This document shows, one piece after another, positions 10,205 to 36,079 of a DNA stretch of 41,745 nucleotides. Below the pieces are notes generated by a model. The model made no database searches, was not told the DNA's origin, and saw only the letters and a list, made by a program, of their open reading frames with translations. The first letter of the stretch is position 1; each line of letters starts with the position of its first letter. The stretch comes from Betaproteobacteria bacterium. Its GTDB lineage: Bacteria; Pseudomonadota; Gammaproteobacteria; Burkholderiales; SG8-41. The stretch is taken from positions 1 through 41,745 of the forward strand of contig CANJQI010000026.1 of assembly GCA_947476215.1 (NCBI GenBank), written 5' to 3'. The position numbers were made by a program, and so were the translations under genes.

Positions 10205-11050
10205 ATGACCGACCACTACGCGGTGATAGGCAATCCTGTCGCGCACAGCTTGTCGCCGCACATTCATGTAGAGTTCGCACGCCAGACCGGTCAGGACATG
10301 GACTACGTGCGCTTGCTGGCGCCGCTAGACGCGTTTCGCGCGACCGTGCTGCAATTTCGCGACGCAGGCGGCAGGGGCGTGAATGTTACTCTGCCGTTCA
10401 AACGCGCCGCCTGGGAGTTCGCGGATCGTCATACGGATACCGCGCGCGATGCCGAGGCGGCCAATGTTCTCGATTTCCGGGACGGCAGCATCGTGGGCCA
10501 CAACACGGATGGTGTCGGTGTGGTCACCGATCTCGAGCGCAACCTGGGTTTTGCCATTGCCGGCAAGCGAGTGTTAATTATGGGCGCAGGCGGCGCGACG
10601 TACGGCGTGATGTCGCCGATACTCGATGCCGGACCTACATTGCTGATCGTCGCCAACAGGACAGTAAACAAAGCGTTCAGCGTGGTTGAAAATTTCAGGA
10701 ACCATCGGAATACTTCTGGGGGCAAGGTTTCCGCGCTCCCTTATCCGGAACTCGCAGGAACGCAATTTGACCTGATCTTAAACGCCACGTCGGCGGGCCT
10801 GACGGATGAAATGCCGCCGTTGCCCCCCGGAATATTTGCCCCAGGGGCAGCCGCCTACGATATGGTGTACGGCAAACGCACGCCATTCATGACGTTCGCA
10901 GCCCGGCAAGGCGCAACTTTGGTCGCGGACGGGCTGGGGATGCTGGTTGAGCAGGCGGCGGAATCGTTTCGTATTTGGCGCGGCGTGCGGCCGGAAACCG
11001 CATCCGTCATTTCCGCGCTGCGCTTGGAGATCGGTAAGCAGAGGCAGTAA
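10205..11050 (+). CDS. aroE: Shikimate 5-dehydrogenase
   Basis: A 281-residue enzyme of the chorismate pathway that reduces 3-dehydroshikimate with NADPH. GNPVAHSLSP (9-18) and NVTLPFK with catalytic K66 bind the substrate, D102 in NTDGVG is the partner residue, and GAGGAT (127-132) is the nucleotide loop. ANRT supports NADP specificity. Length is normal. The TAA stop (11048-11050) lies inside the first unit of a heptamer repeat array, AGTAAGC, so the repeat borders or provides the end of the gene. mtgA follows on the other side of the array. Confidence 0.95.
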   Translation: MTDHYAVIGNPVAHSLSPHIHVEFARQTGQDMDYVRLLAPLDAFRATVLQFRDAGGRGVNVTLPFKRAAWEFADRHTDTARDAEAANVLDFRDGSIVGHNTDGVGVVTDLERNLGFAIAGKRVLIMGAGGATYGVMSPILDAGPTLLIVANRTVNKAFSVVENFRNHRNTSGGKVSALPYPELAGTQFDLILNATSAGLTDEMPPLPPGIFAPGAAAYDMVYGKRTPFMTFAARQGATLVADGLGMLVEQAAESFRIWRGVRPETASVISALRLEIGKQRQ

Positions 11051-11203
11051 GCGGTGAGTGGTAAGCAGTTCGTAGTGAGCAGTGCGTCTGGAGGGCTATG
11101 ACTTTATTTATTGCGCGACACAGTGGACGCGAGAGCGGCTTACCACCGCTCACCGCTTACTGCTTACCGCTCACGATCTACCACTTACCGCTCACGCCCT
11201 ATC
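11044..11203. repeat. Heptamer inverted-array element A (aroE-mtgA junction)
   Basis: Six 7-base units at 11046-11087 (AGTAAGC, GGTGAGT, GGTAAGC, AGTTCGT, AGTGAGC, AGTGCGT) face nine units at 11138-11203 of the complementary type (GCTTACC, GCTCACC, GCTTACT, GCTTACC, GCTCACG, ATCTACC, ACTTACC, GCTCACG, CCCTATC). One 3-base slip occurs at 11145-11147, and the core (11088-11137) is about 50 bases. Bases 11044-11058 and 11149-11163 are a perfect 15-bp inverted repeat. The first arm contains the aroE stop codon; the second ends 4 bases before the mtgA ATG. TACCGCTCAC occurs here twice and again in element B. The transcript could form a long imperfect hairpin. Confidence 0.9.
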
Positions 11204-27621: not shown

Positions 27622-28179
27622 CTATGAATCGAGACGCGTTGCTTGCAACCGGCGCACCATTTGTTGCACGGCATCGCTTTGCATGTCGCGGTACAGCAGC
27701 GCTTCTTCGTGTTCCTTGCCCACGACGTCGGTATCGGTATAGGACAGGTCGCGGCGCAGCGCGATCTCGGAATTTTGCACGTACTCTTTCTTTATTTGAT
27801 CGTAGATCCGGTACGACACGCGATAGTTCAGCGTGATTTCGCGCACGCGCCCGCTGCTCGACAACGACAGTATCGCGCGTTCGCGCTGTTCGCCGAGGAT
27901 TTCCAGCGTCACGCGTGCTTCCTGAGGATTGTTCGTGACGCGGGTTTGGCTTCCGGCGCGCACCGTGCGCGTGAGCTGACCGGCGAATTGCGGCGAACCC
28001 GAGATGTACAGCGTATCGAACGGCAAAGAAGCCTGTCCGCGCAGCTGGAAGCCGCAGGACGACAGCAGCAATGCTGCTGCAAGAAGGATGAGGGAGGCTG
28101 TTTGAGGGATGAAGGCGGAGGGATGAGGGATGAAAGCGGAATCCACTCCTCTGCTTGGCTGCGACTCAAATTTACTCAT
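27622..28179 (-). CDS. lptE: LPS-assembly lipoprotein LptE with repeat-derived N-terminus
   Basis: A 185-residue outer-membrane lipoprotein that plugs LptD and helps deliver LPS to the cell surface. The lipobox LLLSSC places the acylated cysteine at residue 42; CGFQLRG is the usual mature start. Known LptE signal peptides are about 18-22 residues, but here 41 residues precede the cysteine. The first ~26 (MSKFESQPSRGVDSAFIPHP...) are encoded by heptamer element C: its proximal arm gives GGAGG 8 bases before the ATG (28192-28188) and the ATG itself. The h-region (SLILLAAALLL) is intact, so export should still work. No other good start is visible. Confidence 0.9.
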   Translation of the reverse strand: MSKFESQPSRGVDSAFIPHPSAFIPQTASLILLAAALLLSSCGFQLRGQASLPFDTLYISGSPQFAGQLTRTVRAGSQTRVTNNPQEARVTLEILGEQRERAILSLSSSGRVREITLNYRVSYRIYDQIKKEYVQNSEIALRRDLSYTDTDVVGKEHEEALLYRDMQSDAVQQMVRRLQATRLDS

Positions 28180-28205
28180 CCCTCATCCCTCCGCCTTCAT
28201 CCCTC
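28085..28205. repeat. Heptamer inverted-array element C (leuS-lptE junction)
   Basis: Eight 7-base units at 28085-28140 (AGGATGA, GGGAGGC, TGTTTGA, GGGATGA, AGGCGGA, GGGATGA, GGGATGA, AAGCGGA) face TCATCCC, TCATCCC, TCCGCCT, TCATCCC at 28176-28203. Bases 28104-28133 and 28176-28205 are a perfect 30-bp inverted repeat around a 42-base core, the strongest palindrome in the window. It overlaps the 5' end of lptE completely and lies just beyond the leuS stop (28214-28212). ACTCATC at 28174-28180 is the same unit as in uvrD (element D). Confidence 0.95.
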
Positions 28206-28211
28206 GAAACT

Positions 28212-31043
<2,832 letters not shown>

Positions 31044-31914: not shown

Positions 31915-34190
31915 TGAATTCTTCGTTTCTCGCAGGTCTCAATGAGCCGCAACTCGAGGCTGTCACTCTCCCGCATCAATCCGCGCTGATACTCGCCGGC
32001 GCCGGCAGCGGCAAAACACGAGTGCTGACCACGCGCATTGCGTGGCTGATCCAGGCCGGCCAGATCGGGCCGTCCGGATTGCTGGCGGTGACGTTCACCA
32101 ACAAGGCGGCGAAGGAGATGCTGGCACGCATCAGTGCCATGTTGCCGATCAATACGCGCGGCATGTGGGTGGGAACATTTCACGGCCTGTGCAATCGCAT
32201 GCTGCGCGCCCACTTTCGCGACGCGGGACTGCCGCAACTGTTCCAGATCCTCGACAGCCAGGATCAGCTCGCGCTGATCAAGCGTGTGATGAAAGCGGCC
32301 AACGTCGACGACGAACAGTTTCCACCGCGCCAGGTTGCGTGGTTCATCAACAGCCACAAAGACGCCGGCAAACGCGCGAAGGACGCCGAGGAATACGACG
32401 GACACTCGCGGCGCATGAGGGAAGTTTATGCCATGTACGAGGCGCAATGCCAGCGCGAAGGCGTGGTGGACTTCGCGGAACTGCTGCTGCGTTGCCATGA
32501 GTTGCTGTCGCGCAATGAATTGCTGCGCGATCACTATCGCGGCCGGTTCCGTCATATTCTCGTCGACGAGTTTCAGGACACCAATCGCCTGCAGTACCTG
32601 TGGCTGCGCCTGCTGGCGGGAGGAGAAAACGCGGTTTTCGCGGTCGGAGACGACGATCAGTCCATCTACGCTTTTCGCGGTGCGTCGGCTGCCAACATGC
32701 AGGACCTGCAGAAGGACTTCGCGGTCGAAAAAGTTATCAAGCTCGAACAGAACTACCGCTCGCATGGTCACATACTCGATGCCGCCAATGCGCTGATCGA
32801 ACACAACGAAAGGCGGCTGGGCAAGAATTTGTGGACCTCGGAAGGCAAAGGCGAGCCGTTGCGGGTTTACGAAGCCGGCACCGATCTCGACGAAGCTGGA
32901 TTTATCGTCGACGAAGTCAAGTCGCTGCACAACGAAGGCGTGCGCCTGAATGAAATTGCGCTGCTCTACCGCTCCAATGCGCAATCGCGCGTAATCGAAC
33001 ATGCGTTGTTCAATGCCGGCATGTCATACCGTGTTTATGGCGGACTGCGCTTTTTCGAGCGCCAGGAAATCAAGCATGCGCTCGCTTATCTGCGACTGCT
33101 GGCGAGCGATGAAGACGACGGTGCGTTATTGCGCGTGATCAATTTTCCAACGCGCGGCATCGGAAACCGCAGCCTCGAACAACTGCAGGGCCTTGCCAAA
33201 GCGCAAGAGACCAGTCTGTGGAGAGCAGCGAAGGAAAAGACAGCGCGAAGTGCGGAGTGCAAAGTGCAAAGTGGAAGTGCAAGTGCAAGTGCAAGTGAGA
33301 AAGGGAGCGCCGCCGGTAACTCATCACTCATCACTCATCACTCATCGCTGGGCAAAGGCCTCCCCGCCTTCGTAGTCTTGATCGAATCCATGCGCGCCGC
33401 GACTGCGAGCCTGCCGCTGCCCGAAATCATAGACCACGTCATCGAGCACAGCGGCCTCAAGCAGCATTATCAGGGCGAGCGTGAGGGCGCCGATCGGCTG
33501 GAAAACCTGGGCGAACTGGTCAACGCCGCCGCGGGCTTTGCGTCCAACGACCAGCAGGACGATACCAGCCTGGCGGCGTTTCTTGCGCACGCGGCGCTCG
33601 AAGCGGGGGATAACCAGGCGCAGGCTGGTATGGATGCACTGCAGTTGATGACCGTGCACTCGGCCAAGGGGTTGGAATTTCACAGCGTTTTTATCAGCGG
33701 CCTAGAGGAAGGGCTGTTCCCGCACGAAAACAGCTTGACCGAAGCCGACGGCAAGGAAGAGGAAAGACGACTCATGTATGTGGCGCTGACGCGTGCACGG
33801 CGGCGGCTGTATCTGTCGTTCGCCCAAAGCCGCATGCTGCACGGGCAGACCCGCTACAACGTCGCGTCCAGTTTTTTTCACGAAATTCCGGAGCCCTTGC
33901 TCAAGCGCATCAATCGCGGTGGAGCATACGCTTTGCATGCTCCGCCATCGCAGCAATCCGGCTCGCGCCAGCGCTATGGCAGGGGCAAAGTGGAAGTCTA
34001 TTCGGAGCGCGGCATCCCTGATGCGTCATCGCCGTGGAGCGTGGGCCAAAACGTGGTGCATCCGAAGTTCGGCGCCGGCATTATCGTCAATGCCGAAGGG
34101 CGGGGCGGTGACGCGCGTGTGCAGATTAACTTTGGCCGGGCCGGTACAAAATGGCTGGCGCTGGAGTATGCCAAGCTGACGCCGGCCTGA
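31914..34190 (+). CDS. uvrD: UvrD/Rep-family DNA helicase with repeat-encoded insertion
   Basis: A 758-residue superfamily 1A 3'-5' helicase. Walker A GAGSGKT (29-35), DEFQDT near 218-223, GDDDQSIYAFRGA, NYRSHGHILDAANALI, LMTVHSAKGLEF and VALTRARRRLYL are motifs I-VI. The C-terminus (GQNVVHPKFGAGIIVN...) is the Tudor-like domain seen in UvrD/PcrA. Residues ~440-482 (KEKTARSAECKVQ...SLITHHSSL) form an in-frame insertion made of heptamer element D, in a place where homologues have a short linker before LPAFVxLIE. The ATG overlaps the stop of the broken upstream frame, so translation may once have been coupled. Roles: nucleotide-excision and mismatch repair. Confidence 0.95.
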   Translation: MNSSFLAGLNEPQLEAVTLPHQSALILAGAGSGKTRVLTTRIAWLIQAGQIGPSGLLAVTFTNKAAKEMLARISAMLPINTRGMWVGTFHGLCNRMLRAHFRDAGLPQLFQILDSQDQLALIKRVMKAANVDDEQFPPRQVAWFINSHKDAGKRAKDAEEYDGHSRRMREVYAMYEAQCQREGVVDFAELLLRCHELLSRNELLRDHYRGRFRHILVDEFQDTNRLQYLWLRLLAGGENAVFAVGDDDQSIYAFRGASAANMQDLQKDFAVEKVIKLEQNYRSHGHILDAANALIEHNERRLGKNLWTSEGKGEPLRVYEAGTDLDEAGFIVDEVKSLHNEGVRLNEIALLYRSNAQSRVIEHALFNAGMSYRVYGGLRFFERQEIKHALAYLRLLASDEDDGALLRVINFPTRGIGNRSLEQLQGLAKAQETSLWRAAKEKTARSAECKVQSGSASASASEKGSAAGNSSLITHHSSLGKGLPAFVVLIESMRAATASLPLPEIIDHVIEHSGLKQHYQGEREGADRLENLGELVNAAAGFASNDQQDDTSLAAFLAHAALEAGDNQAQAGMDALQLMTVHSAKGLEFHSVFISGLEEGLFPHENSLTEADGKEEERRLMYVALTRARRRLYLSFAQSRMLHGQTRYNVASSFFHEIPEPLLKRINRGGAYALHAPPSQQSGSRQRYGRGKVEVYSERGIPDASSPWSVGQNVVHPKFGAGIIVNAEGRGGDARVQINFGRAGTKWLALEYAKLTPA
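33248..33346. repeat. Heptamer array element D inside uvrD
   Basis: Left array 33248-33299: AAGTGCG, GAGTGCA, AAGTGCA, AAGTGGA, then 6-base units AGTGCA x3 and AGTGAG. Right array 33319-33346: four perfect ACTCATC units. A 19-base spacer lies between. The arrays are not strict complements of each other. The whole segment is open in the uvrD frame. In ACTCATC repeats all three frames give the same cyclic heptapeptide (SSLITHH), with no stop. Confidence 0.93.
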
Positions 34191-35985: not shown

Positions 35986-36079
35986 CGTGAGCGGTAAACG
36001 GTTAACCGTAAGCGGTAGATCGCAAGACTTCGCCACCGGCTACCGCTCACCGCTAACGGCTTACCGTTAACGGTCTACC
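35986..36079. repeat. Heptamer inverted-array element B (DUF2782-thrB junction)
   Basis: Six units at 35986-36027 (CGTGAGC, GGTAAAC, GGTTAAC, CGTAAGC, GGTAGAT, CGCAAGA) face six at 36038-36079 (GGCTACC, GCTCACC, GCTAACG, GCTTACC, GTTAACG, GTCTACC), with a 10-base core. GTGAGCGGTA (35987-35996) and TACCGCTCAC (36041-36050) are exact complements; the same decamer is found twice in element A, 25 kb away. On the minus strand the TAG stop of the DUF2782 gene (36077-36075) is part of the first unit met, GGTAGAC. Confidence 0.92.

Follow-up and report, generated by a model that had tools for sequence, protein, structure and literature searches.

How does an essential gene come to carry its predicted start codon on one arm of a long inverted repeat? 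The question is raised by lptE, which is essential, in a window (the whole stretch of DNA analysed, 41,745 nucleotides) that is contig C26 of a 5.75-Mb draft genome in 326 contigs. On the minus strand, leuS is followed by lptE (identified by PF04390, E 2.7e-17) and then by a holA-like gene (PF06144). An inverted repeat lies in the 32 nt that separate lptE from the leuS stop and runs on into lptE. Its two arms are 33 nt each, 97% complementary and separated by a 42-nt loop (Table 1), and complementarity is exact over 30 nt (28176-28205 with 28104-28133). In a scan with exact 11-base seeds and partners no more than 160 nt away, this 30-bp arm pair is the longest inverted repeat in the window, the runner-up having 15 bp.

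Table 1. Features of the leuS-lptE junction, and the second element in uvrD, by position in the window.
Feature	Position	Strand	Remarks
5' arm, purine-rich heptad array (R arm)	28176..28208	-	holds in-frame TGA, SD GGAGG and lptE ATG; a mini-ORF, MKAEG-stop, precedes
Shine-Dalgarno-like GGAGG	28188..28192	-	8 nt 5' of ATG
lptE ATG, predicted start codon	28177..28179	-	in-frame TGA at 28185-28183
Core (hairpin loop)	28134..28175	-	LptE residues ~2-15; no match across the core elsewhere in the genome
3' arm, pyrimidine-rich heptad array (Y arm)	28101..28133	-	lptE frame reads FIPHPSAFIPQ
lptE, 185 aa from arm ATG	27622..28179	-	lipobox Cys is residue 42
leuS, upstream gene	28212..30989	-	stop just outside the element
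Second heptad element (purine array, core, pyrimidine array), in frame in uvrD	33238..33360	+	SAECKVQSGSASASASEKGSAAGNSSLITHHSSL; similar build

The arms are themselves tandem arrays. On the plus strand the arm reads as four heptads (TCATCCC, TCATCCC, TCCGCCT, TCATCCC); on the lptE strand its units are GGATGAG and GGCGGAG, with three GGG runs. The lag-7 score of the junction is 16 (p 0.005, the smallest value that 200 shuffles can give), indicating tandem units of 7 bp, and the two arrays lie close together in convergent, inverted orientation. The original prediction had described the element as a pair of repeat arms. The inverted repeat is confirmed, but it is better described as a pair of heptad arrays, of which arm sequence alone recurs elsewhere in the genome. 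Further heptad arrays (GCGGTGA and TCACCGC types) lie at 11040-11178, where there is a 15-bp exact inverted repeat, and at 36032-36066. A different dispersed repeat is present in leuS itself, where DNA for residues ~250-305 (window 30060-30300, minus strand) matches five other places in the genome.

The lptE frame opens 29 nt past the leuS stop, directly after a TGA within the arm and one codon before the ATG. Because this in-frame TGA closes the lptE frame, translation of lptE cannot begin anywhere upstream of the arm. As read from the DNA, the purine array of the arm thus carries a stop, a putative Shine-Dalgarno (SD) sequence and an ATG, while the lptE frame continues without a stop through the core and the pyrimidine array and on into the predicted signal peptide. 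We infer that ribosomes start LptE at 28179, giving a predicted leader of 41 residues before the lipobox cysteine. The earlier description of the minus-strand arm as GGAGG, eight bases and ATG is accurate, as is its estimate that core and second arm encode the first ~26 residues of LptE (counted from the ATG, the second arm ends after 79 nt, or ~26 codons).

Is this arrangement peculiar to one genome? Among 74 genomes of the family, lptE was found in 67, yielding 64 distinct readable leuS-lptE junctions. The full set comprised 136 distinct junctions after merging of repeated ones and omission of those that were unreadable (L011, L028, L043, L074, L160, L180, L193 and L199); of these, 64 come from known members of the family. 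Heptad arrays are present at 27 of the 64 family junctions, 25 by the lag-7 test (p<=0.01) and two (L012 and L054) added by eye, and the remaining 37 have no element. The test is also passed by four of the other 72 (L025, L130, L137 and L141). An event of this genome alone is ruled out by the arrays in the 27 family junctions. It had been proposed that the element replaced the native start of lptE; that the arm holds the SD and start, with a TGA barring any start upstream, agrees with this, but replacement in this genome alone does not hold. Spellings among the relatives vary, with GGATGAA, GTGAGGC, GAATGAT, GGCAGAA, GGCACAA and GGGTAAA types. The LptE proteins of three metagenome bins titled Bordetella parapertussis (L133, L142 and L162) resemble those of this environmental group, and the record names look doubtful.

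Mapped onto the leuS-lptE tree, the state of the element requires at least 10 changes, compared with a mean of 21.3 when labels are shuffled; the 10 changes are partly an overcount because L012 and L054 (scored as element-free) and L004 keep remnants. Presence of the element is thus clustered on the tree, yet it has been lost or gained often. Given arrays at 27 of 64 junctions and at least 10 changes, the element is either old, with losses and respelling, or recurrent. The sister species L064 and L077 have different elements at the lptE site, and the purine arms of L012 and L013 are one 7-bp unit apart, with substitutions in addition. Across the 27 family elements, the two arms of an element match each other better (mean 16.4) than they match the arms of other species (11.5; none of 20,000 permutations as high). 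The own-arm match exceeds the same-genus mean in 18 of 22 cases and lies above every cross match in just four of the 27. This comparison repeats, on the family elements, one made with 27 elements picked by eye, which included L025, L137 and L141 and were without L017, L054 and L068. Arm pairing is weak in many relatives, which rules out a single, strictly kept hairpin.

Leaders are long where the element is present. With the start that has the best SD, the median leader is 37 residues in 26 element junctions and 17 in 36 element-free ones (p 6e-9); with the shortest possible start the medians are 34.5 and 17 (p 1e-7), both p values being uncorrected for relatedness. These counts drop L016 and L070, in which no ATG or GTG gives a leader of at least 14 residues. 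The 41 residues here are about twice the usual length, as had been predicted. A long N-terminus was also sought in the 37 element-free family junctions, where it is not the rule: in the 36 that offer a start, the interquartile range is 15-19. Where translation begins upstream, the pyrimidine array contributes FILHPSS-like residues leading into the hydrophobic core.

The position of the start in relation to the arrays varies across the family. An in-frame stop and start both lie within the detected purine array in nine of the 27 elements (L001, L002, L005, L007, L008, L044, L054, L071 and L077); in L013 the start is inside the array and the stop abuts it, and five more (L003, L050, L055, L064 and L065) have an in-frame start inside the array. 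No in-frame ATG or GTG lies inside a detected purine array in the other 12, five of which have no detected purine array (L012, L017, L046, L053 and L068), L017 and L068 having a pyrimidine array only. The usable start falls 3' of the pyrimidine array in L045 and L059, and in L016 a TTG is the sole start on offer. Starts within purine arrays follow from the array sequence itself, and nine of 27 is a raw count. Taking junctions and leaders together, we consider it quite likely that the element, a convergent pair of 7-base arrays made up of a purine array, a short core and a pyrimidine array at the leuS-lptE junction, has taken over the 5' end of lptE.

Similar arrays are found elsewhere in the genome. 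Apart from matching itself over its full length and as its reverse complement, the element matches the genome at 15 places, all on arm sequence or arm edges; none spans the core at E<=0.001, so copies have no shared interior. A pattern of three GGATGAN units, allowing as many as three mismatches, gives 100 matches in the genome (overlapping ones counted), against 39 for the backward pattern, indicating a dispersed repeat in many copies. At 20 other array loci, the detector found arrays of both kinds, purine and pyrimidine, in six cases (L209, L212, L213, L215, L216 and L222) and one array or none in the remaining 14; the two arms of L209 have different units. A scan of seven other array loci for exact 10-mer inverted repeats found no heptad pair, the pairs there being imperfect. 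In this genome, frames open inside a purine array in murB, hldE, a GT2 gene, folA and xerC, murC ends in such an array, and in uvrD, recJ, uvrA and tilS heptad elements lie inside the gene, open in its frame. These genes were found by heptad patterns, so are not a random sample, and were named by Pfam; xerC and hldE are what we take the genes to be from Pfam families and neighbours. The loci with a purine heptad array at the gene start are L089, L092, L093, L097, L206 and L208 (hldE, a Nudix/ThiE gene, murB, GT2, folA and xerC).

The element in uvrD (Table 1) is a repeat insert that a conserved gene carries in frame and that some relatives lack. Heptad inserts at this site were detected (lag-7 p<=0.01) in six of 28 readable genomes, this one included (L226-L230 and L235), with units that vary. 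The other 22 are above p 0.01, among them L232 (0.035), L253 (0.025) and L236, which looks filled by eye; L254 and L255 were unreadable and are left out. Sites filled in some genomes and empty in others are what would be expected of a mobile element, MITE-like or REP-like, with terminal inverted repeats and a transposase acting in trans, which was inserted between leuS and lptE and brought a start with it by chance. The inverted-repeat build is in keeping with this, as are the genome's three above-cut-off matches to PF01797 (Y1_Tnp), one of which has an internal stop, and the quite different lptE-site elements of the sisters L064 and L077, which look as if swapped whole. We nevertheless regard mobility as an unlikely explanation. 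The matches in the genome stop at the arms and leave out the core, the arms of one element can differ in unit, as in L209, and no target-site duplication was seen by eye between filled and empty uvrD sites, in species too distant for a firm test.

A second alternative, slightly less likely, is that the hairpin is a selected RNA regulator that buries the lptE start, so that LptE output depends on the hairpin being opened or on how transcription and translation are timed. Folded as RNA on the strand read as lptE, the element is very stable (-75.5 kcal/mol, z -9.15; none of 200 shuffles as good), and in the finished mRNA the SD and ATG are predicted to be completely paired. They remain fully paired when the model places a stationary ribosome at the leuS stop. 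Folding of growing transcripts gives a different picture. The SD is predicted unpaired at 0.62-0.81 up to 34 nt past the ATG, at 0.24-0.31 at 44-54 nt, at 0.60 at 59 nt and at 0.00 from 64 nt, and the ATG at 0.59-0.38 up to 54 nt and at 0.00 from 59 nt. On these predictions, either initiation would be co-transcriptional or the hairpin would cost expression. On our preferred account, in which the element has taken over the 5' end of lptE, ribosomes most likely load while the transcript is still nascent and lacks its second arm, since the complete hairpin should hide the lptE start.

There is also a small second inverted repeat (28062-28080, minus strand) over the codons of the hydrophobic core 5' of the lipobox cysteine. 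Against a null of synonymous codons, a second hairpin over the signal-peptide codons is supported (p<0.05) in 12 of 27 element-bearing lptE genes and in one of 36 element-free ones (Mann-Whitney p 3e-5 for folding, relatedness uncorrected); L022, being too short, is left out of the 36- and 42-nt tests of folding. This association favours regulation by RNA, but among nine sequences in one register we found no covariation for the second hairpin beyond that of shuffles (105 of 500 at least as high), and outside the family only one of four element junctions reaches p<0.05. Weak arm pairing in many relatives, the pyrimidine array standing alone in L017 and L068, and the 37 family junctions with no element all argue against a selected regulator. 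A known RNA family is ruled out: Rfam returned 36 matches, mostly to miRNA precursors, none of which reaches the gathering score.

It is least likely of all that translation starts at the loop's GTG, which is codon 12 of the long form and would leave a 30-residue leader, the SD and ATG of the arm being a coincidence of purine-rich sequence: this GTG is in frame and is the sole other ATG or GTG with a leader of at least 14 residues, but its SD match is of 3 bases (AAG, 7 nt), compared with GGAGG at 8 nt for the ATG, and eight other family elements have an in-frame stop and start inside the purine array. Since that SD is weak and nothing upstream is possible, the arm supplies the best lptE start.

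If arrays provide gene starts, what makes a unit of seven suitable? Since 7 is not divisible by 3, each of the three frames of a 7-base array runs through one and the same heptapeptide cycle, and common purine heptads read a stop and a start in all frames while their complements are open. An array of GGATGAG thus reads Gly-stop-Gly-Met-Arg-Asp-Glu in three frames, with its own SD-like purines, and its complement is open in three frames as Leu-Ile-Pro-His-Pro-Ser-Ser. GGATGAA, TGATGAG, GAATGAT, GTGAGGC and GGGTGAA likewise hold, whatever the frame, a stop together with an ATG or GTG, and their complements are open in all frames. AGTGCAA, GGCAGAA and GGCACAA are open on both strands, and GGGTAAA has a stop with no ATG, GTG or TTG.

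We propose that convergent heptad arrays are frame-independent gene-start cassettes. Whichever frame is read, the purine array would provide stop, SD and start, and the pyrimidine array a hydrophobic leader that stays open. Cassettes of this kind would have rebuilt the starts of lptE, folA, murB, hldE and xerC again and again in this betaproteobacterial family, their sites staying fixed and the genes open as the elements are respelled or swapped. We give this reading a probability of roughly 0.4. Such an element would fit a gene junction in any phase, ending the upstream frame and starting the downstream one. On our preferred account of the lptE element, arrays may grow and shrink by slippage of whole heptads, and template switching between arms (a process that is the subject of PMC8794818 and PMC8604942) could keep their spelling alike. 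Selection would retain arrays at sites that can accommodate a linker or a hydrophobic N-terminus, and LptE initiation would take place on the nascent mRNA ahead of synthesis of the second arm.

The closest known kind appears to be the convergent heptamer arrays of Xanthomonas. In the parts of the account of Rehm et al. (2015, PMC4692102) that concern us, GGGNATC heptamers form tandem arrays dispersed over the genomes of Xanthomonas and Nostoc, 70 convergent pairs being listed among 186 repeat patterns in Xcc and 75 among 183 in Xac. Sites are mostly common to related species with extensive variation in length and sequence, 89% and 93% of the repeats are intergenic, and they form G-quadruplexes. 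The lptE element resembles these in its 7-bp tandem units, its convergent pair, its dispersal over the genome and its shared sites with varying sequence. It differs from what is described there in that its units are GGATGAG-like, with other spellings, and occur within genes as well as at their starts; in the lptE arm there are three GGG runs rather than four G-tracts, and the unit is not GGGNATC. Moreover, a GGGAATC array has no stop and no ATG, GTG or TTG in any frame.

Heptamer arrays near start codons are described in marine Beggiatoaceae, where TAACTGA direct repeats stop all three frames in one orientation, as MacGregor noted, and are open in the other; some arrays lie within or overlap ORFs, mostly near ORF ends (MacGregor 2015, PMC4679880, in the relevant sections). 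Unlike the lptE element, which is an inverted pair of another unit, these have one fixed unit in direct arrays (with one indirect repeat) and, in those sections, mostly lie just 5' of the start codon and do not supply it; in frame, the TAACTGA unit has no ATG, GTG or TTG. In the available portions of these two accounts, heptamer arrays in bacteria are without a settled function. Rickettsia palindromic elements (RPE), with a family sequence of 105-146 bp, are read in frame in conserved protein genes, and some small bacterial repeat fusions carry predicted signal peptides (reviewed by Delihas 2007, PMC2229807). The heptad elements of lptE and uvrD are similarly read in frame in conserved genes but, unlike RPE as described there, have no common consensus: heptad units differ between copies and species, and no match elsewhere in the genome spans the lptE core. 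In the literature searched we found no account of heptad arrays supplying the stop, SD and start of a downstream gene, and a search on six heptad runs gave matches that concern plants and rodents.

The arithmetic property explains why a gene junction could tolerate heptamer arrays whatever its reading phase, and it points to a candidate role for them, the making and remaking of gene starts. If this is true, lptE would show repeat DNA turned, in nature, into a stretch of the signal peptide that an essential lipoprotein carries, and start sites called automatically in genomes with such arrays would have to be treated with caution.
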